Shown: positions 11,174 through 61,079 of the stretch, piece by piece
Layout: each line of letters starts with the position of its first letter
Numbering within the stretch: the stretch's first letter is position 1
Source: Burkholderiaceae bacterium
GTDB taxonomy: Bacteria; Pseudomonadota; Gammaproteobacteria; Burkholderiales; Burkholderiaceae_C
Assembly: GCA_016790575.1 (NCBI GenBank)
Contig: JAEUOU010000032.1
Span: 1-64,000, forward strand
DNA length: 64,000 nt
Direction: 5' to 3'
Notes under the pieces: model-generated
Database searches by the model: none
What the model saw: only the letters and a program-made list of their open reading frames with translations
What the model was told of the DNA's origin: nothing
Translations under genes and position numbers: made by a program

Positions 11174-11903
11174 CGCCCTGGTGCTGTTCTCCGGTGGTCA
11201 GGACTCCACCACCTGCCTGGCCTATGCGCTGGAGCGCTACGAGCGGGTCGAAACACTGGGCTTTGACTACGGACAGCGCCACCGTGTCGAACTCGACGCC
11301 CGGCTGGCGGTGCGTTTGGCGTTGGCACAGCGATTTCCCGCCTGGGCCGAGCGCCTGGGAGACGACCATGTGCTCAATCTCGCCGTTCTTGGCAAAGTGA
11401 GTGAAACCTCACTGACGCGGGAGATGGCGTTTTCCATGGAGCAATCCGGTCTGCCCAATACCTTTGTGCCCGGTCGCAATCTGGTATTTCTGACGCTCGC
11501 GGCGGCGCTGGCCTACCGGCGCGATCTTCAGGTGCTGGTCACCGGCGTGTGCGAAACGGATTTCTCCGGCTATCCGGACTGCCGCGACGACAGCATGAAA
11601 GCGCTGCAGGTGGCCCTGGCCTTGGGCATGGACCGCCGCATCCTGATCGAAACGCCCCTCATGTGGATCGACAAGGCCGCCACCTGGGAGATGGCCAGAC
11701 AGCTGGGTGATCGCAGCGCAACGCCCCAGGGCGGCGCTGCGCTCATTGATCTGATCGTTGAAGAAACCCACACCTGCTACCGGGGTGACCGCATTCACCG
11801 CCACCCCTGGGGATGGGGGTGTGGCGCGTGTCCCGCTTGTGAACTGCGTGCCAGCGGGTGGGTTCGCTGGAAAAATGCAAGCGCCATGCTATCAATAAAA
11901 TAG
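11163..11903 (+). CDS. queC: 7-cyano-7-deazaguanine synthase
   Basis: ATP-dependent enzyme that converts 7-carboxy-7-deazaguanine to preQ0 in queuosine biosynthesis. The 246-residue product has the PP-loop motif SGGQDST at residues 10-16, a VPGRNLVFL segment, and a C-terminal zinc site of four cysteines (C-x14-C-x2-C-x2-C ending ACPACELR). The GTG start at 11163 is preferred because GGAGG at 11152-11156 lies six bases upstream; ATGs at 11142 and 11145 would lie at or before that site. The final residues (SAMLSIK) and the stop are encoded by a copy of the dispersed element at 11886-11945, so the C-terminus appears to have been remodelled by it. Confidence 0.93.
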
Positions 11904-55177: not shown

Positions 55178-56116
55178 GTGGTGCCCTTGCGTCTGTCCCT
55201 GTTGGCTGCAGAGGAGCCGGTTTCGCCGGGCGCCGGGCCGTGCCTGCCCGATGCCGTCTGGCGTGCCGATGCGCTGGCGTGTGCCGACGGGGCGGTGCGG
55301 TCCAGCGGCCATGCGGCGCTGGACGCGGCGCTGCCCGGCGGCGGCTGGCCGGTGGGGGCGCTGGTGGAGCTGCTGCAGACCCAGCCGGGGCAGGGCGAGT
55401 GGCGGCTGCTGGCGCCGGCGCTGGCCGCCACCACCGGCGCGCTGGTGCTGGTGGCGCCGCCGCACGCGCCGTTTGTGCCCGCACTGGCGGCGCAGGGGCT
55501 GGCGCCGGCACGGCTGCTGCGGGTGGGTGGCGCGGGCGGTCCGGACGCCGAGCCCGGGGCGGGCCGGGGCACGGCCGCACTCGACCCGGCCGCGCGGGTC
55601 TGGGCGGCCGAGCAGGCGCTGCGTTGCGCCGGGGTGGCCGCCGTGCTGGCCTGGCTGCCGCAGGTGCGCCCCGAGCAGCTGCGCCGCCTGCAGCTGGCCG
55701 CGCAGCGCCACGGCACGCTGCTGTTTGTCATGCGCCCGGCGCGGGCGCGGCACGAATCCTCACCCGCGGTGCTGCGCCTGCTGGTGGACGAGGCCACCGC
55801 CGCCGTCCCTGATACAGCCTCTGCCACCGACCCCGATGCCCTGGTGCTGCACCTGCTCAAGCGCCGCGGCCCGCCGCTGGAGCAGCCGCTGCGCCTGGCC
55901 GCCCGCCCGCCCCGGCTGACGGCGCTGCTGCAGGCCAGCCGGGGTGCGGCCGGCCGGCGGCGCCAGGCGGCGGCGCGCACACCGCTGCCCGCCGGGCCAG
56001 GTCTTCCGGTGGCGCCCGGGGCCGGCACCACGCCCGCCCGAAGCACACCTCCACGGCCCCGAACGGCCGCCACCCCCCATGCTCTGGATCGCCCTCGCCA
56101 GCGCGTCGCCGCCTGA
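55178..56116 (+). CDS. imuA: Translesion synthesis accessory protein ImuA
   Basis: SOS-mutagenesis protein of RecA-like fold, acting with ImuB and DnaE2. The 312-residue product has the ImuA features WRADALACADGAVRSSGHAALDAALPGGGWPVGALVELL near the N-terminus, WAAEQALRCAGVAAVLAWLP and RRLQLAAQRHGTLLFVMRP in the middle; a Walker A motif is not obvious, as is usual for the family. The start is uncertain: GTG codons at 55169, 55178 and 55181 are candidates, all downstream of the LexA box. The 3' end overlaps imuB by 38 bases, and the C-terminal 60 residues are Pro/Arg-rich. Confidence 0.88.
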   Translation: MVPLRLSLLAAEEPVSPGAGPCLPDAVWRADALACADGAVRSSGHAALDAALPGGGWPVGALVELLQTQPGQGEWRLLAPALAATTGALVLVAPPHAPFVPALAAQGLAPARLLRVGGAGGPDAEPGAGRGTAALDPAARVWAAEQALRCAGVAAVLAWLPQVRPEQLRRLQLAAQRHGTLLFVMRPARARHESSPAVLRLLVDEATAAVPDTASATDPDALVLHLLKRRGPPLEQPLRLAARPPRLTALLQASRGAAGRRRQAAARTPLPAGPGLPVAPGAGTTPARSTPPRPRTAATPHALDRPRQRVAA

Positions 56117-57659
56117 GGACGGCGCAGCCGGGCCGGCGGCTGGCGCCTCCACGCGGGCCGCGCCCGACGCCTCGTTCGCCGCCGACGCCACCGCGCTGGC
56201 CTGGCGGGCGCTGGTCTTCACCCCGCGCGTCATCCGGCTCGAAGAAGCCGTGCTGATGGACATCGCCGCCAGCCAGCGGCTGTTTGGCGGCGCCGGCGCC
56301 CTGCTGGCGCGGTTTTTTGAGGAAAAAGAGCCCATACCCAGCGTGATATGGTCTTATGGTGCTACTGAATGGATAGCAATCGGACGCCTGCGCGCGGCCC
56401 CGCTGCAGCCGCTGCAGGCCACCGATCCGGTGGATGCCGCCGAGGGAGGGGAGGGCGCCGCGGCGGTGCCGGCCGCCTGGCCCGCCGTGCCGCCGCCCGA
56501 GGCGCTGCCGCTGGGGGCCTTGAGCGCCGCCCGTCCGCACCTGGCCACACTGGCCGGGCTGGGCTGCCGCAGCTGGGGCGACCTGCGCGCGCTGCCGCGT
56601 GGGGGCGTGGTGCGGCGCTTTGGCGAGCCGCTGCTGGCCGCGCTGGACCAGGCCTTCGGCCTGCGCCCCAGCACGCACGAGTGGATCACCCTGCCCGAGC
56701 AGTTCGACGAGCCGCTGGAGCTGCCGCAGAACGTGGACACCGCCCCGGCGCTGCTGTTCGGCGCACGGCGCCTGCTGGCGCGGCTGCACGCCTGGCTGCG
56801 CGCGCGCCGTCTGGGGCTGCTGGGGCTGGAGCTGGTCTGGCAGATCGACCGCCGCCGCGACCTGCCGCCCGAAGGCCGCCTGCCGGTGCGCACCGCCGTT
56901 CCCACGCTGGACCTGGCCCACATCGAACGGCTGCTGGCCGAGCACCTGGCCCATGTCACGCTGCCCGCGCCGGTGCAGGCGCTGCGCCTGCGCACGCTGG
57001 AGACCGCACCGCTGCCCGGCGACAGCGCCAGCCTGCTGCCCGACCCGCGCCAGGACGGCGACAGCCTGCACGCCCTGGTCGAACGCCTGGGCGCCCGGCT
57101 GGGGGCGCACCAGGTGCAGGCCGTCGAGCCCGTGGCCGACCACCGCCCCGAGCGCATGTTGCGCTGGTTGCCGGTTTCGGAAGCTCCAAAATGGATAGCA
57201 AACAATGACCGGATGACGCTGGGTATCGGCCAAAAAACCATCAAACCGCCGAAAAGGAAGGCCGCCGCGCCCGCGACAGCCCCGTCCGGCCGCCCGCAAC
57301 CCGCCGAAGAGCCGGTGGCCGGCTCACCGCCCGGGCGCCGACAGGCTCCGCCCGAACCGGTGGGGCAGCCGGCACCGCCCGGCGCGCTCTACCCCAGCTG
57401 GCTGCTGGAGCGACCGTTGCGCCTGGTGGTGCAGCGCCACCGGCCGCTCTACCAGGGGCCGCTCACGCTGCTGGTGGGGCCGCAGCGCCTCGAATCGGGC
57501 TGGTGGGACGCCGACGCCACCGGCAGCGCCGCCGCCCCGGCCGCGCTGCGCGACTACTTCATCGCCCGCAGCCCCCAGGCCGGCCTGCTGTGGGTGTTCC
57601 GCGAACGCCTGCCGCAGAGCGCCGAGCCCGGCTGGTACCTGCACGGGCTGTTTGCGTGA
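56079..57659 (+). CDS. imuB: Catalytically inactive Y-family polymerase homologue ImuB
   Basis: Hub of the ImuA-ImuB-DnaE2 mutasome: binds DnaE2 and the beta clamp. The 526-residue product starts MLWIALAS and has the family's LEEAVLMDIAASQRLFGGAGAL and LATLAGLGCRSWGDLRALPRGGVVRRFG. The DxD/E catalytic residues of Y-family polymerases are absent, as expected. Two copies of the dispersed element are in frame: residues about 81-102 (EKEPIPSVIWSYGATEWIAI) and about 369-389 (PKWIANNDRMTLGIGQK), giving a protein longer than usual (about 470-500). A Pro-rich linker follows the second. Confidence 0.9.
   Translation: MLWIALASASPPEDGAAGPAAGASTRAAPDASFAADATALAWRALVFTPRVIRLEEAVLMDIAASQRLFGGAGALLARFFEEKEPIPSVIWSYGATEWIAIGRLRAAPLQPLQATDPVDAAEGGEGAAAVPAAWPAVPPPEALPLGALSAARPHLATLAGLGCRSWGDLRALPRGGVVRRFGEPLLAALDQAFGLRPSTHEWITLPEQFDEPLELPQNVDTAPALLFGARRLLARLHAWLRARRLGLLGLELVWQIDRRRDLPPEGRLPVRTAVPTLDLAHIERLLAEHLAHVTLPAPVQALRLRTLETAPLPGDSASLLPDPRQDGDSLHALVERLGARLGAHQVQAVEPVADHRPERMLRWLPVSEAPKWIANNDRMTLGIGQKTIKPPKRKAAAPATAPSGRPQPAEEPVAGSPPGRRQAPPEPVGQPAPPGALYPSWLLERPLRLVVQRHRPLYQGPLTLLVGPQRLESGWWDADATGSAAAPAALRDYFIARSPQAGLLWVFRERLPQSAEPGWYLHGLFA
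56319..56382 (-). repeat. Dispersed hairpin-core element, copy E (inside imuB, in frame)
   Basis: On the minus strand: TGCTAT, 7-nt loop, GTAGCA, 15-nt spacer, core ACGCTGGGTATGGGCTC (56328-56344). It has the same 34-base arm-to-core distance as copies A, B and G. The gene reads the opposite strand of the element. Confidence 0.75.
57183..57245 (+). repeat. Dispersed hairpin-core element, copy F (inside imuB, in frame)
   Basis: ATAGCA arm, 15-nt spacer AACAATGACCGGATG, core ACGCTGGGTATCGGCCA (57216-57232), A-run tail. The left arm is degenerate. The core is read as Thr-Leu-Gly-Ile-Gly. Confidence 0.72.
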
Positions 57660-57692: not shown

Positions 57693-60600
57693 ATGTCCTC
57701 GGAATTCCCCGTCCCCGCTGCCGCCTCGCCGCTGCCCGCCTACGCGGAGCTGCACTGCCGCAGCAACTTCAGCTTCCAGATCGGCGCCTCCCATGCCGAG
57801 GAGCTGGTGGAGCGGGCCCATGCGCTGGGCTACAGCGCGCTGGCGGTGACGGACGAATGTTCGGTGGCGGGGCTGGTGCGTGCGCATGGCGAGGCCAGAA
57901 AGCGGGGGCTGAAGCTGATCGCCGGCGCCGAGTTCGTGCTGGAGGACGGCGCCCCGCCGGATGCTGCCGCCGACACCGGCCCGGACGGAGCCGCGGTGCC
58001 CGCCGCCCGCTGGCGCGTCGTTGCCCTGGCGCGGGACCGGCGCGGCTGGGGCCAGCTGTGCAGCTTCATCACCGCCTGCCGCCGCGCCGCGCCCAAGGGG
58101 CACTACCGCGTCGGCTGGGGCGACCTCACCGCCGCCCGGCTGGCGGGGTGCGAGATCCTCCTGGCGCCCGATCGGCTGACGCGAAGCGCTATCACGATGG
58201 AAGCACTCCAGCACCATCTCACGATGGGTAAAAGCCAATTTGGTGCCCATTTCTGGCTCGCGGCCGAGCTGCTGCACGGCCTGGACGACGACCTCTGGCT
58301 GGCGCAGCTGTCAGACGCCTCGGCCGCCACCGGCGTGCCGCTGCTGGCCGCGGGGGACGTGGTCATGCATGTGCGCTCGCGCAAGCTGCTGCACGACGTG
58401 CTCACCGCCGTGCGCCTGGGCGCGCCGGTGGCGCAGTGCGGCTTTGGCCTGCAGCCCAACGCCGAGGCGCACCTGCGCCCCCGGCTGCGCCTGGCCGCGC
58501 TCTACCCGCCCGCGCTGCTGGCCGCCACGCTCACCGTGGCCGGGCGCTGCACCTTCAGCCTGGACGAGTTGCGTTACGAATACCCGCGCGAAACCCTGCT
58601 GCCCGGCTGCACCCCGGCCCAGACCCTGCGCCGCCACACCTGGGACGGCGCCGCCCACCGCTACCCCGGCGGCATTCCGGCCGGGGTGCAGCAGCAGGTG
58701 GAGCACGAACTGGCGCTGATCGCCGAGCTGAAATACGAGATGTATTTCCTCACCGTGCACGACCTGGTGGTCTTTGCCCGCAGCCGCGCCATCCTGTGCC
58801 AGGGGCGCGGCTCGGCGGCCAACTCGGCCGTGTGCTACTGCCTGGGCATCACCGAGGTGGACCCGTCGCGCATGAGTGTGCTGTTCGAGCGCTTCATCTC
58901 GCGCGAGCGCAACGAGCCGCCCGACATCGACGTCGACTTCGAGCACCAGCGGCGCGAAGAAGTCATCCAGTACCTGTATGCCAAATACGGGCGCGAGCGC
59001 GCCGCGCTGGCCGCCACCGTCATCAGCTGGCGCCCGCGCAGCGCGCTGCGCGACGCCGGCCGCGCGCTGGGCATCGCGCCCGCCTGGGTGGACCGCCTGG
59101 CCAAGGAGCATTTCTGGTTCGACGGCAGCGCCGCCGGCCGCCAGCGTCTGGTCGACGCCGGGCTCGATCCCGACGACTGGCGCCTGCTGCAGTGGCTGGA
59201 GGTGGCCGCGCGGCTGATCGGTTTTCCGCGCCACCTCAGCCAGCACGTGGGCGGCTTCGTGCTCACCCAGGGGCCCCTCACCCGCCTGGTGCCGGTGGAA
59301 AACGCCGCCATGGACGGCCGCACCGTCATCCAGTGGGACAAGGACGACCTGGACGCCGTCGGCCTGCTCAAGGTGGACGTGCTCGCCTTGGGCATGCTCA
59401 GCGCCATCCGCCGCTGCCTGGCGCTGGTGGGCCAGCGCCACGGCGCCACCTGGCAGCTGCAGGACATCCCCGCCGACGACACCCCCACCTGGGACATGAT
59501 CTGCGCCGCCGACACCGTGGGGGTGTTCCAGATCGAAAGCCGCGCGCAGATGAGCATGCTGCCGCGCCTGCGCCCCCGCTGCTTCTACGACCTGGTGATC
59601 GAAGTCGCCATCGTGCGCCCCGGCCCCATCCAGGGCGGCATGGTCCACCCCTACCTGCGCCGCCGCCAGGGCCTGGAGCCGGCCGAGCTGCCCAGCCCCG
59701 CGCTGCAGGAAGCGCTGGGCCGCACCCTGGGTGTGCCCATCTTCCAGGAGCAGGTGATGCAGATCGCCATGCTGGCCGCCGGTTTCAGTGCCGACGAAGC
59801 CGACAGCCTGCGCCGCGCCATGGCCGCCTGGAAACGCAAGGGCGGCGTGCAGAAATTCCACGACCGCATCGTCAGCGGCATGACGGCGCGCGGCTACAGC
59901 ACCGAATTCGCCCAGGCCATCTTCCGCCAGATCCAGGGCTTCGGTGAATACGGCTTCCCCGAAAGCCACGCCGCCAGCTTCGCGCTGCTGGTCTGGGCCA
60001 GCTGCTGGCTCAAACGGCACGAGCCGGCGTGCTTCCTCGCCGCCATGCTCGACAGCCAGCCGCTGGGCTTCTACAGCCCCAGCCAGCTGGTGCAGGACGC
60101 CCGCCGCCACGGCGTCACCGTCCACCCGGTGTGTGTGCTGGCCAGCGACTGGCTCTGCACCCTGGAGCCCCCCGCCGCCGAAAGGCCGCTCCCAGCCGTT
60201 CGCCCTGAGCCTGTCGAAGGGCCACCCTCCACCGTTCGCCCTGAGTCGTTCGAAGGGCCGCTCGTGAAAACGCTCCCCGGGCTCGCCGAAAGCCCACCAT
60301 TGACCGTTCGCCCTGAGCCTGTCGAAGGGCCCGCCACCTGGGGCCATGGCCACCCGGCCGTGCGGCTGGGCCTGCGGCAGGTGCACGGTCTGCCCGAAGC
60401 CGCCGCCCGCCGCATCACCGCCGCCCGCGCGGACGCCCCCTTCACCACCGTGGAAGACCTGGCCCAGCGCGCCGGGCTGGACGCCGGCGACCTCAAGGCC
60501 CTGGCAGCCGCCGACGCGCTGGCGGCCCTGGGCGGCCACCGCCGCCAGCAGGTGTGGGATGCCTCGGCCCTGCACCGCGCCCCGGCGCTGCTGCGCGCCG

Positions 60601-61079
60601 CCCCCACCCACGAAGACTGGCTGGACCTGCCCGAGGCCCCCGAAGGCGAAGCCATCGTGCACGACTACGCCGCCACCGGCCTGACGCTGCGCCGCCACCC
60701 GCTGGCGCTGCTGCGCCCGCGCCTGGCCGCACTGCGCCTGCAAACCGCCGCCGCGCTGCAGGCCGCCCCCGACGGCCGCCTGGTGCGGGCCTGCGGCATC
60801 GTCACCGTGCGCCAGCAGCCCGGCACCGCCAAAGGCGTGGTCTTTGTCACGCTGGAAGACGAAACCGGCACCGTCAACGTCATCGTCTGGAAAGCCCTGC
60901 GCGAGCGTTTCCGCCGCGACCTGCTGCACGCCCGCCTGCTGGCCGTGCACGGCACCTGGCAGCGCGACGAAGCCACCGGCGGCCAGGTCCGTCACCTGAT
61001 CGCCGGCTACCTGAAAGACCTGACGCCGCTGCTGGGCCGGCTGGCGGACGCGGGCATGGGAAGCCGGGATTTCCGGTGA
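57693..61079 (+). CDS. dnaE2: Error-prone DNA polymerase DnaE2
   Basis: Alternative C-family replicase for SOS translesion synthesis. The 1,128 residues have a PHP domain (ELHCRSNFSF...ALAVTDE), the catalytic aspartate motif PPDIDVDFEHQRREEVIQYLY (D411, D413, D415), FQEQVMQIAMLAAGFSADEADSLRRAMAAWK, a helix-hairpin-helix region and a C-terminal OB-fold (GIVTVRQQPGTAKGVVFVTLEDETGTVNVIVW). It is longer than usual (about 1,020-1,060): residues about 165-187 come from dispersed element copy G, and about 835-880 hold three VRPEPVEGP-type repeats. It follows imuB by 33 bases in an SOS operon. Confidence 0.95.
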   Translation: MSSEFPVPAAASPLPAYAELHCRSNFSFQIGASHAEELVERAHALGYSALAVTDECSVAGLVRAHGEARKRGLKLIAGAEFVLEDGAPPDAAADTGPDGAAVPAARWRVVALARDRRGWGQLCSFITACRRAAPKGHYRVGWGDLTAARLAGCEILLAPDRLTRSAITMEALQHHLTMGKSQFGAHFWLAAELLHGLDDDLWLAQLSDASAATGVPLLAAGDVVMHVRSRKLLHDVLTAVRLGAPVAQCGFGLQPNAEAHLRPRLRLAALYPPALLAATLTVAGRCTFSLDELRYEYPRETLLPGCTPAQTLRRHTWDGAAHRYPGGIPAGVQQQVEHELALIAELKYEMYFLTVHDLVVFARSRAILCQGRGSAANSAVCYCLGITEVDPSRMSVLFERFISRERNEPPDIDVDFEHQRREEVIQYLYAKYGRERAALAATVISWRPRSALRDAGRALGIAPAWVDRLAKEHFWFDGSAAGRQRLVDAGLDPDDWRLLQWLEVAARLIGFPRHLSQHVGGFVLTQGPLTRLVPVENAAMDGRTVIQWDKDDLDAVGLLKVDVLALGMLSAIRRCLALVGQRHGATWQLQDIPADDTPTWDMICAADTVGVFQIESRAQMSMLPRLRPRCFYDLVIEVAIVRPGPIQGGMVHPYLRRRQGLEPAELPSPALQEALGRTLGVPIFQEQVMQIAMLAAGFSADEADSLRRAMAAWKRKGGVQKFHDRIVSGMTARGYSTEFAQAIFRQIQGFGEYGFPESHAASFALLVWASCWLKRHEPACFLAAMLDSQPLGFYSPSQLVQDARRHGVTVHPVCVLASDWLCTLEPPAAERPLPAVRPEPVEGPPSTVRPESFEGPLVKTLPGLAESPPLTVRPEPVEGPATWGHGHPAVRLGLRQVHGLPEAAARRITAARADAPFTTVEDLAQRAGLDAGDLKALAAADALAALGGHRRQQVWDASALHRAPALLRAAPTHEDWLDLPEAPEGEAIVHDYAATGLTLRRHPLALLRPRLAALRLQTAAALQAAPDGRLVRACGIVTVRQQPGTAKGVVFVTLEDETGTVNVIVWKALRERFRRDLLHARLLAVHGTWQRDEATGGQVRHLIAGYLKDLTPLLGRLADAGMGSRDFR
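58187..58252 (+). repeat. Dispersed hairpin-core element, copy G (inside dnaE2, in frame)
   Basis: CGCTAT, 7-nt, GAAGCA, 15-nt spacer CTCCAGCACCATCTC, core ACGATGGGTAAAAGCCA (58220-58237). Arm-to-core distance is again 34 bases. The core is read as Thr-Met-Gly-Lys-Ser, the same frame as copies B and F. Confidence 0.72.
60197..60331 (+). repeat. Three in-frame copies of a VRPEPVEGP-coding repeat inside dnaE2
   Basis: Near-identical 27-base units at 60197-60223, 60233-60259 and 60305-60331, sharing CGTTCGCCCTGAG and GAAGGGCC, spaced 36 and 72 bases (multiples of three). They are read as VRPEPVEGP, VRPESFEGP and VRPEPVEGP. This resembles a REP-like repeat common in proteobacteria. Confidence 0.9.

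Follow-up and report, generated by a model that had tools for sequence, protein, structure and literature searches.

In the dnaE2 gene described here, three copies of a 27-bp REP-like element have probably been captured in frame within one beta-hairpin turn of the encoded error-prone DNA polymerase, at a recurrent hotspot of repeat landing or retention that has been filled independently elsewhere. The gene lies in the window, i.e., the whole stretch of 64,000 nucleotides that was analysed. In 2013, repair genes were reported to contain translated mobile repeats; in its passages on such insertions, that report gave no reason for those particular genes being hit (PMC3733652). With one structurally defined turn, filled about a dozen times by unrelated repeats in a polymerase that is non-essential and acts in the damage response, and with DnaE1 as a clean negative control, the question becomes testable as one of tolerance, targeting, or selection. 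In addition, turns of 7 to >110 residues form a natural series of DnaE2 variants for asking about ImuB binding or mutation rate.

Three in-frame repeats in a hairpin turn of DnaE2

The dnaE2 product scores 1440 bits with the NCBIfam model for “error-prone DNA polymerase”, whose cut-off is 939, and has the Pfam domains PHP, DNA_pol3_alpha, finger, HHH_6, and OB. The gene is preceded by imuA (an NCBIfam equivalog) and then by an imuB-like ORF. The imuB-like ORF has no match to any family model and contains two copies of a ~45-bp dispersed element (56292-56393 on the − strand and 57174-57254 on the + strand). The features of the window that are considered here are collected in the table.

Features of dnaE2 and its surroundings (positions in the window)
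Feature	Position	Strand	Remarks
imuB-like ORF	55944..57659	+	name given from its place between imuA and dnaE2
dnaE2 (error-prone C-family DNA polymerase, imuC)	57693..61079	+	1128 aa; NCBIfam NF004225, Pfam
“element copy G”, PHP domain segment	58187..58262	+	gapless, conserved position; degenerate partial element match 58213-58249
Possible degenerate copy	60161..60187	+	14/27 identity, 36-base register; level matched by 1.4% of dnaE2 27-mers
Insert in beta-hairpin turn, residues ~826-887, between CTLE and AVRLG	60168..60353	+	orthologue alignment, AlphaFold2, PolIII alpha alignment
REP-like copy 1, CGTTCGCCCTGAGCCTGTCGAAGGGCC (VRPEPVEGP)	60197..60223	+	exact 27-mer
REP-like copy 2 (VRPESFEGP)	60233..60259	+	3 mismatches, all in loop; stem intact
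Possible degenerate copy	60269..60295	+	15/27 identity, 36-base register; level matched by 0.5% of dnaE2 27-mers
REP-like copy 3 (VRPEPVEGP)	60305..60331	+	exact; identical to copy 1

An earlier note on this DNA had described three 27-base, in-frame repeats encoding VRPEPVEGP-type peptides and spaced in multiples of three. Coordinates and frame are borne out: the peptides lie at residues ~836-880, and the starts of successive copies are separated by 36 and then 72 bases. A chance origin of the three repeats is excluded. The longest exact repeat within dnaE2 is 28 nt, compared with at most 19 nt in 500 shuffles of codon order; synonymous shuffles, with a mean longest repeat of 14.6, can reach 28 because they preserve the repeated peptide. 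In a comparison of dnaE2 with the genome that holds it, every match outside the locus with E <1e-3, the dnaE1 paralogue excepted, falls in the insert. The cores of the repeats are 27/27 and 24/27 identical, whereas the 9-base spacers between intact copies agree at just 1-4 positions. Since the cores are common and the spacers unrelated, the mobile unit is the 27-base core. All copies in this dnaE2 are in direct orientation, with no inverted pair among them. Two further stretches, judged by sequence similarity, are possible but unproven degenerate copies of the same repeat.

The same note had placed a Pro/Glu-rich insert, probably looping out, between a conserved polymerase segment and the helix-hairpin-helix (HhH) region, and both parts of this description hold. 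In a profile alignment to PolIII alpha, the insert immediately precedes the HhH region, and the Pfam HHH_6 match (residues 807-952) spans it. The equivalent turn in E. coli PolIII alpha is NDDGE (~residues 826-830 of 5fku). AlphaFold2 assigns pLDDT values of 28-35 to residues 830-884, with short flanking strands at residues 823-825 and 889-891; the model as a whole is of moderate quality (pLDDT 71, pTM 0.56) and still matches PolIII alpha structures. The insert is thus predicted to be disordered, and the loop is presumably exposed to solvent.

The same turn in other DnaE2 proteins

We fetched 80 loci and aligned 65 DnaE2 sequences in addition to that of the window. Most DnaE2 have a turn of just a few residues; among the 65, its length ranges from 7 to >110. 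In roughly half of them, it contains translated repeats, which belong to at least four unrelated families. The VRPEPVEG REP occupies the turn in L015, L048 (as an inverted pair), L051, L053 (as a variant), and L067, and is also found at the broken gene L084. The GSDP family (GGGGTCAGA..CC.ATT, peptide GSDPNF and similar) is present in the turn of 19 sequences. Other DnaE2 have, in the same turn, the RAQ family (GCGAGCGCAGCGCGGCAATCC, peptides RAQRGNP / GLRPRDD) or the DQVR family (CGGATCAAGTCCG-type repeat, peptide IPDQVRND). The earlier note had considered repeat acquisition by a mutagenic polymerase unusual; this view is not upheld, given how many of the 65 have repeats in the same turn and that intragenic REPs have already been published (PMC3733652).

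Close relatives can have wholly different turns (L048 vs L049, L067 vs L028), many functional-looking DnaE2 have a turn of 7-10 residues, and several copies are stacked in the single turns of L043, L053, L067, L074, and the window. On a quick DnaE2 tree, built with the repeat columns left out and with SH-aLRT as its only measure of support, repeat type requires at least 15 changes (REP 5, GSDP 6, RAQ 3, DQVR 1); strongly supported branches alone force 5 changes for REP, 4 for GSDP, and 2 for RAQ. In the wider order and class, most turns are short and the long ones are again repeat-bearing, with 15 of the 60 sequences in the class-wide sample not parsed by the turn pattern. Long-turn repeats farther afield, named by eye from the turns alone, include PLSPWERAGVRA (L169), a GGHAPESG type (L188, ~200 residues), LPASRGGTGRG (L270), and LSPRERVRVRA (L326). 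A conserved insert without repeat identity at the nucleotide level would have spoken against the earlier reading of this insert as acquired repeats. Instead, most DnaE2 have a short turn, and inserts elsewhere consist of different repeats; the reading is not refuted.

Several comparisons bear on whether the turn is enriched in repeats. In the DnaE1 paralogue, the homologous turn is exactly 9 residues long in 25 of 25 parsed orthologues (5 of 30 were unparsed). Counts of the named patterns over 755 kb agree in direction with an enrichment in the turn, but they are biased, since it was the turns themselves that supplied the patterns. The genome comparison of dnaE2 (see above) and a count of internal 14-mer repeats are less biased tests. 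In the latter, which scores exact 14-mers within the gene and names no families, internal repeats cover 7.7% of bases in the turn, 6.8% in a second loop at residue 489, and 0.5% in the rest of dnaE2. By a hand count from a listing of six genomes, ~15 of 56 GSDP copies lie in this turn, a share that exceeds by far what intergenic DNA could plausibly hold; the permissive nature of the turn may not be enough to account for it.

Repeats were also seen elsewhere in these loci. The loop at residue ~489 contains a recurring translated repeat, GGRALSAGKGGARAAGGGHGAERSA, in L043, L057, L074, L075, L076, L078, and L086, and an inverted REP pair in L052. The few matches in flanking genes include the ImuB linker of L008, which has the VRPEPVEG REP, and the end of imuA in L012. 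In three genomes (L084, L063, L072), the dnaE2 frame seems to be broken at or near the turn.

The repeats as dispersed elements

The repeat is a discrete, dispersed, REP-like palindromic element; the earlier note had already called it REP-like. Copy numbers of repeats given here come from pattern searches. Within 3 mismatches of the element's 21-mer, there are 17 sites in the genome, three of them in dnaE2, and the reversed-pattern control gives 0. Stem variants of the forms CCC...GGG and GGG...CCC both fold to the same 5-bp stem with an 11-nt loop, and inverted (REPIN-type) pairs of the element occur at C18:22701/22735, C18:24154/24204, and C24:172072/172122. The predicted stem is only 5 bp, with a stability no better than that of shuffled sequences (z about −0.6); the case for a palindrome is therefore based on the paired changes and the inverted dimers elsewhere, not on energy. 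The sequence adjacent to the stem is CGTTC, and the GTAG and CGTC tags are absent, so we keep the element out of the REP superfamilies that those tags define. A literature search for the sequence of the VRPEPVEG repeat gave no match.

In the window's genome, the VRPEPVEG REP also forms part of the translated frame of gcvP, uvrA, mfd, and the genes for a UvrD_C/PD-(D/E)XK protein and an MmeI-like protein (L090, L092, L093, L094, and L096); four of these five hosts encode DNA-metabolism proteins. The uvrA gene of G044 (L204) has an in-frame GSDP-type repeat (WGSDSNLTAK), unlike the repeat in uvrA of the window's genome. A general bias of this VRPEPVEG REP toward DNA-repair genes is suggestive in this genome, where uvrA, mfd, the genes for the UvrD_C/PD-(D/E)XK and MmeI-like proteins, and dnaE2 stand against gcvP. 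The relative G006 is a counter-example, with in-frame copies in tex and in genes for a xanthine-dehydrogenase-type protein, an MFS transporter, a penicillin-binding protein, and possibly a DUF2201 protein. Because these hosts are mixed, we do not claim such a bias. Among forward copies, the VRPEPVEG frame is used 11 times and the FALSLSKG frame twice, by a hand-made list of 13 hosts or clades judged to be separate. From the encoded peptides, this preference would fit selection for hydrophilic disorder.

A likely source of such repeats is seen in the GSDP family. In five relatives, GSDP repeats flank a protein of ~240 residues, in four of the five beside gltB (recognised by its start). The two of the five that were scanned identify the protein type, by NCBIfam, as a REP-associated tyrosine transposase (RAYT). 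The window's genome has a RAYT homologue, also beside gltB (L089 / L208, contig C5 at ~135.6 kb), with an intact frame. In this homologue, NHFH is replaced by DAFQ; with the HUH motif lost, the protein is probably inactive, and its sequence suggests that it is possibly a domesticated REP transposase. For the VRPEPVEG element, we found no transposase in the window's genome that is both cognate and active.

A second, unrelated in-frame repeat family had been proposed for dnaE2 in the earlier note, as “element copy G”, which lies in the PHP domain. This part of the note is not supported: copy G is a degenerate stretch that aligns without gaps, not a repeat gained in addition. The element in question is the ~45-bp dispersed element (ATAGC...TGACCTTTTTACGATGGGTATCGGC), which has at least 44 copies in the window's genome; in the window, it is seen at 11882, 22264, 45858, 49526, 52316, 56393, 57174, and 61853. 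Its abundance and its resemblance to 58213-58249 would favor a second independent in-frame insertion, as would the fact that, in Rhodoferax-type relatives, dnaE2 at the same position resembles their own dispersed element (up to 158 copies). However, 58187-58262 aligns without gaps, i.e., without any change in length, to most Comamonadaceae-type orthologues, and the match to a model built from the genome's own dispersed copies covers 37 bases with an E value of only 0.018 in 64 kb. A model from the Rhodoferax-type elements, kept separate from that of the window's own ~45-bp variant, has no match in the window. A separate insertion at copy G thus seems distinctly unlikely; at most, the segment may be an old capture in an ancestor of the family.

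Explanations and known systems

Capture of mobile repeats in a permissive, disordered turn, presumably near-neutral for the enzyme, is the most likely explanation. An HUH-type REP-associated transposase would copy the element in trans, as the intact RAYTs of relatives suggest for the GSDP family. Selection would then retain only in-frame events that give a hydrophilic, disordered peptide, consistent with the intact frames and the preference for VRPEPVEG. Once seeded, the turn could acquire further copies, to which the multi-copy turns of relatives point. Finally, the peptide would loop out from the turn and would probably be exposed, in keeping with the low pLDDT and with alignments in which most DnaE2, and PolIII alpha as well, have only a short turn. 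The excess of repeats in the turn over intergenic DNA could reflect either targeting or retention. Candidate effects are that the HhH region of DnaE2 might meet the thumb of ImuB differently, or that the mutation rate might change.

Three other explanations deserve consideration. Positive selection of the turn for long disordered inserts that tune the mutasome, through the ImuB thumb or the clamp, with REPs being merely at hand, would account for the excess over intergenic expectation, the number of changes on the tree, and the occurrence of REPs in a relative's ImuB linker. In published AlphaFold models, the HhH region of DnaE2 lies against the thumb of ImuB (PMC12926913, in its passages on DnaE2), and Di Nocera et al. 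speculate, in their discussion of intragenic insertions, that REPs modify repair proteins (PMC3733652). We nevertheless consider such selection unlikely, given that the length and sequence of the insert are unconstrained: even close relatives differ, and many functional-looking DnaE2 manage with 7-10 residues. Biased insertion, in which RAYT-type transposition favors this DNA site or existing REPs, would make a hotspot of the turn by itself, and the stacking of copies and the convergence of several families on one turn speak for it. Unrelated families with different REPs would, however, need a common target, and the residue-489 loop and an ImuB linker have been struck as well. No independent target motif is visible, because protein conservation fixes the flanking DNA. 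Target preference as the main cause is therefore doubtful in our view.

A 36-bp minisatellite, i.e., capture of one REP followed by tandem duplication and later decay, agrees with the output of Tandem Repeats Finder (period 36, 3.8 copies, score 114) and with the two additional in-register units of 14-15/27 identity. Straight tandem duplication would bring the spacer along, yet the spacers are dissimilar despite identical cores. The whole unit, spacer included, is not what is repeated, and we set the minisatellite aside as the main cause, judging it improbable; given the 36/72 spacing and the two weak matches, tandem duplication may still have contributed. In-frame capture of separate REP copies in a tolerant turn remains the preferred reading. 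A more far-reaching version, which we put forward only tentatively and hold to be rather unlikely, is that unrelated mobile repeats converge on this hotspot through targeting or positive retention and remodel the mutasome there, such that the repeat content of the loop would act as an evolvable dial for the induced mutation rate across Burkholderiales.

REPs within DnaE2 have been in print since 2013, so the present case belongs with that known phenomenon. In their sections on intragenic REPs, Di Nocera et al. reported REPs within replication and repair genes, DnaE2 being named, named loops and linkers as places where such insertions may be tolerated, and speculated on mutator effects; a common REP site is described there only for Xanthomonas recB, with different sites in other genes (PMC3733652). 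We found no earlier description of a convergent hotspot in a single DnaE2 turn, and such a hotspot is absent from the passages with relevant terms in two surveys of bacterial polymerases (one being PMC12926913).

The DNA uptake sequences of Neisseria and Pasteurellaceae are likewise short repeats in genome-maintenance genes (PMC2346458), but they number hundreds to thousands per genome, and an uptake sequence reading of the VRPEPVEG element was rejected on its copy number of 17. The Rickettsia palindromic elements (RPE), as described where cited in PMC3733652, are also in-frame palindromic repeats in many protein genes and are apparently tolerated; the likeness is one of description, they occur in other taxa, and the element here is 27 bp. 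As in REP/REPIN-RAYT (TnpA-REP) systems, we see dispersed short palindromes, inverted dimers, and, for the GSDP family, a REP-flanked HUH transposase. Unlike in those systems, the VRPEPVEG element has no active cognate RAYT that was found in this genome and no GTAG tag, and its dnaE2 copies are all direct. A close parallel is with the REPs of PMC3733652, which, in the relevant passages, are short palindromes translated in DnaE2, UvrA, UvrD, RecBCD, and other proteins, as singles, dimers, and clusters. In the present dnaE2, the repeat is read as part of an uninterrupted ORF and is missing from the short form seen in orthologues. The families described there are GTAG- or CGTC-tagged, whereas the present case has a single DnaE2 turn on which several families, unrelated to one another, have converged.
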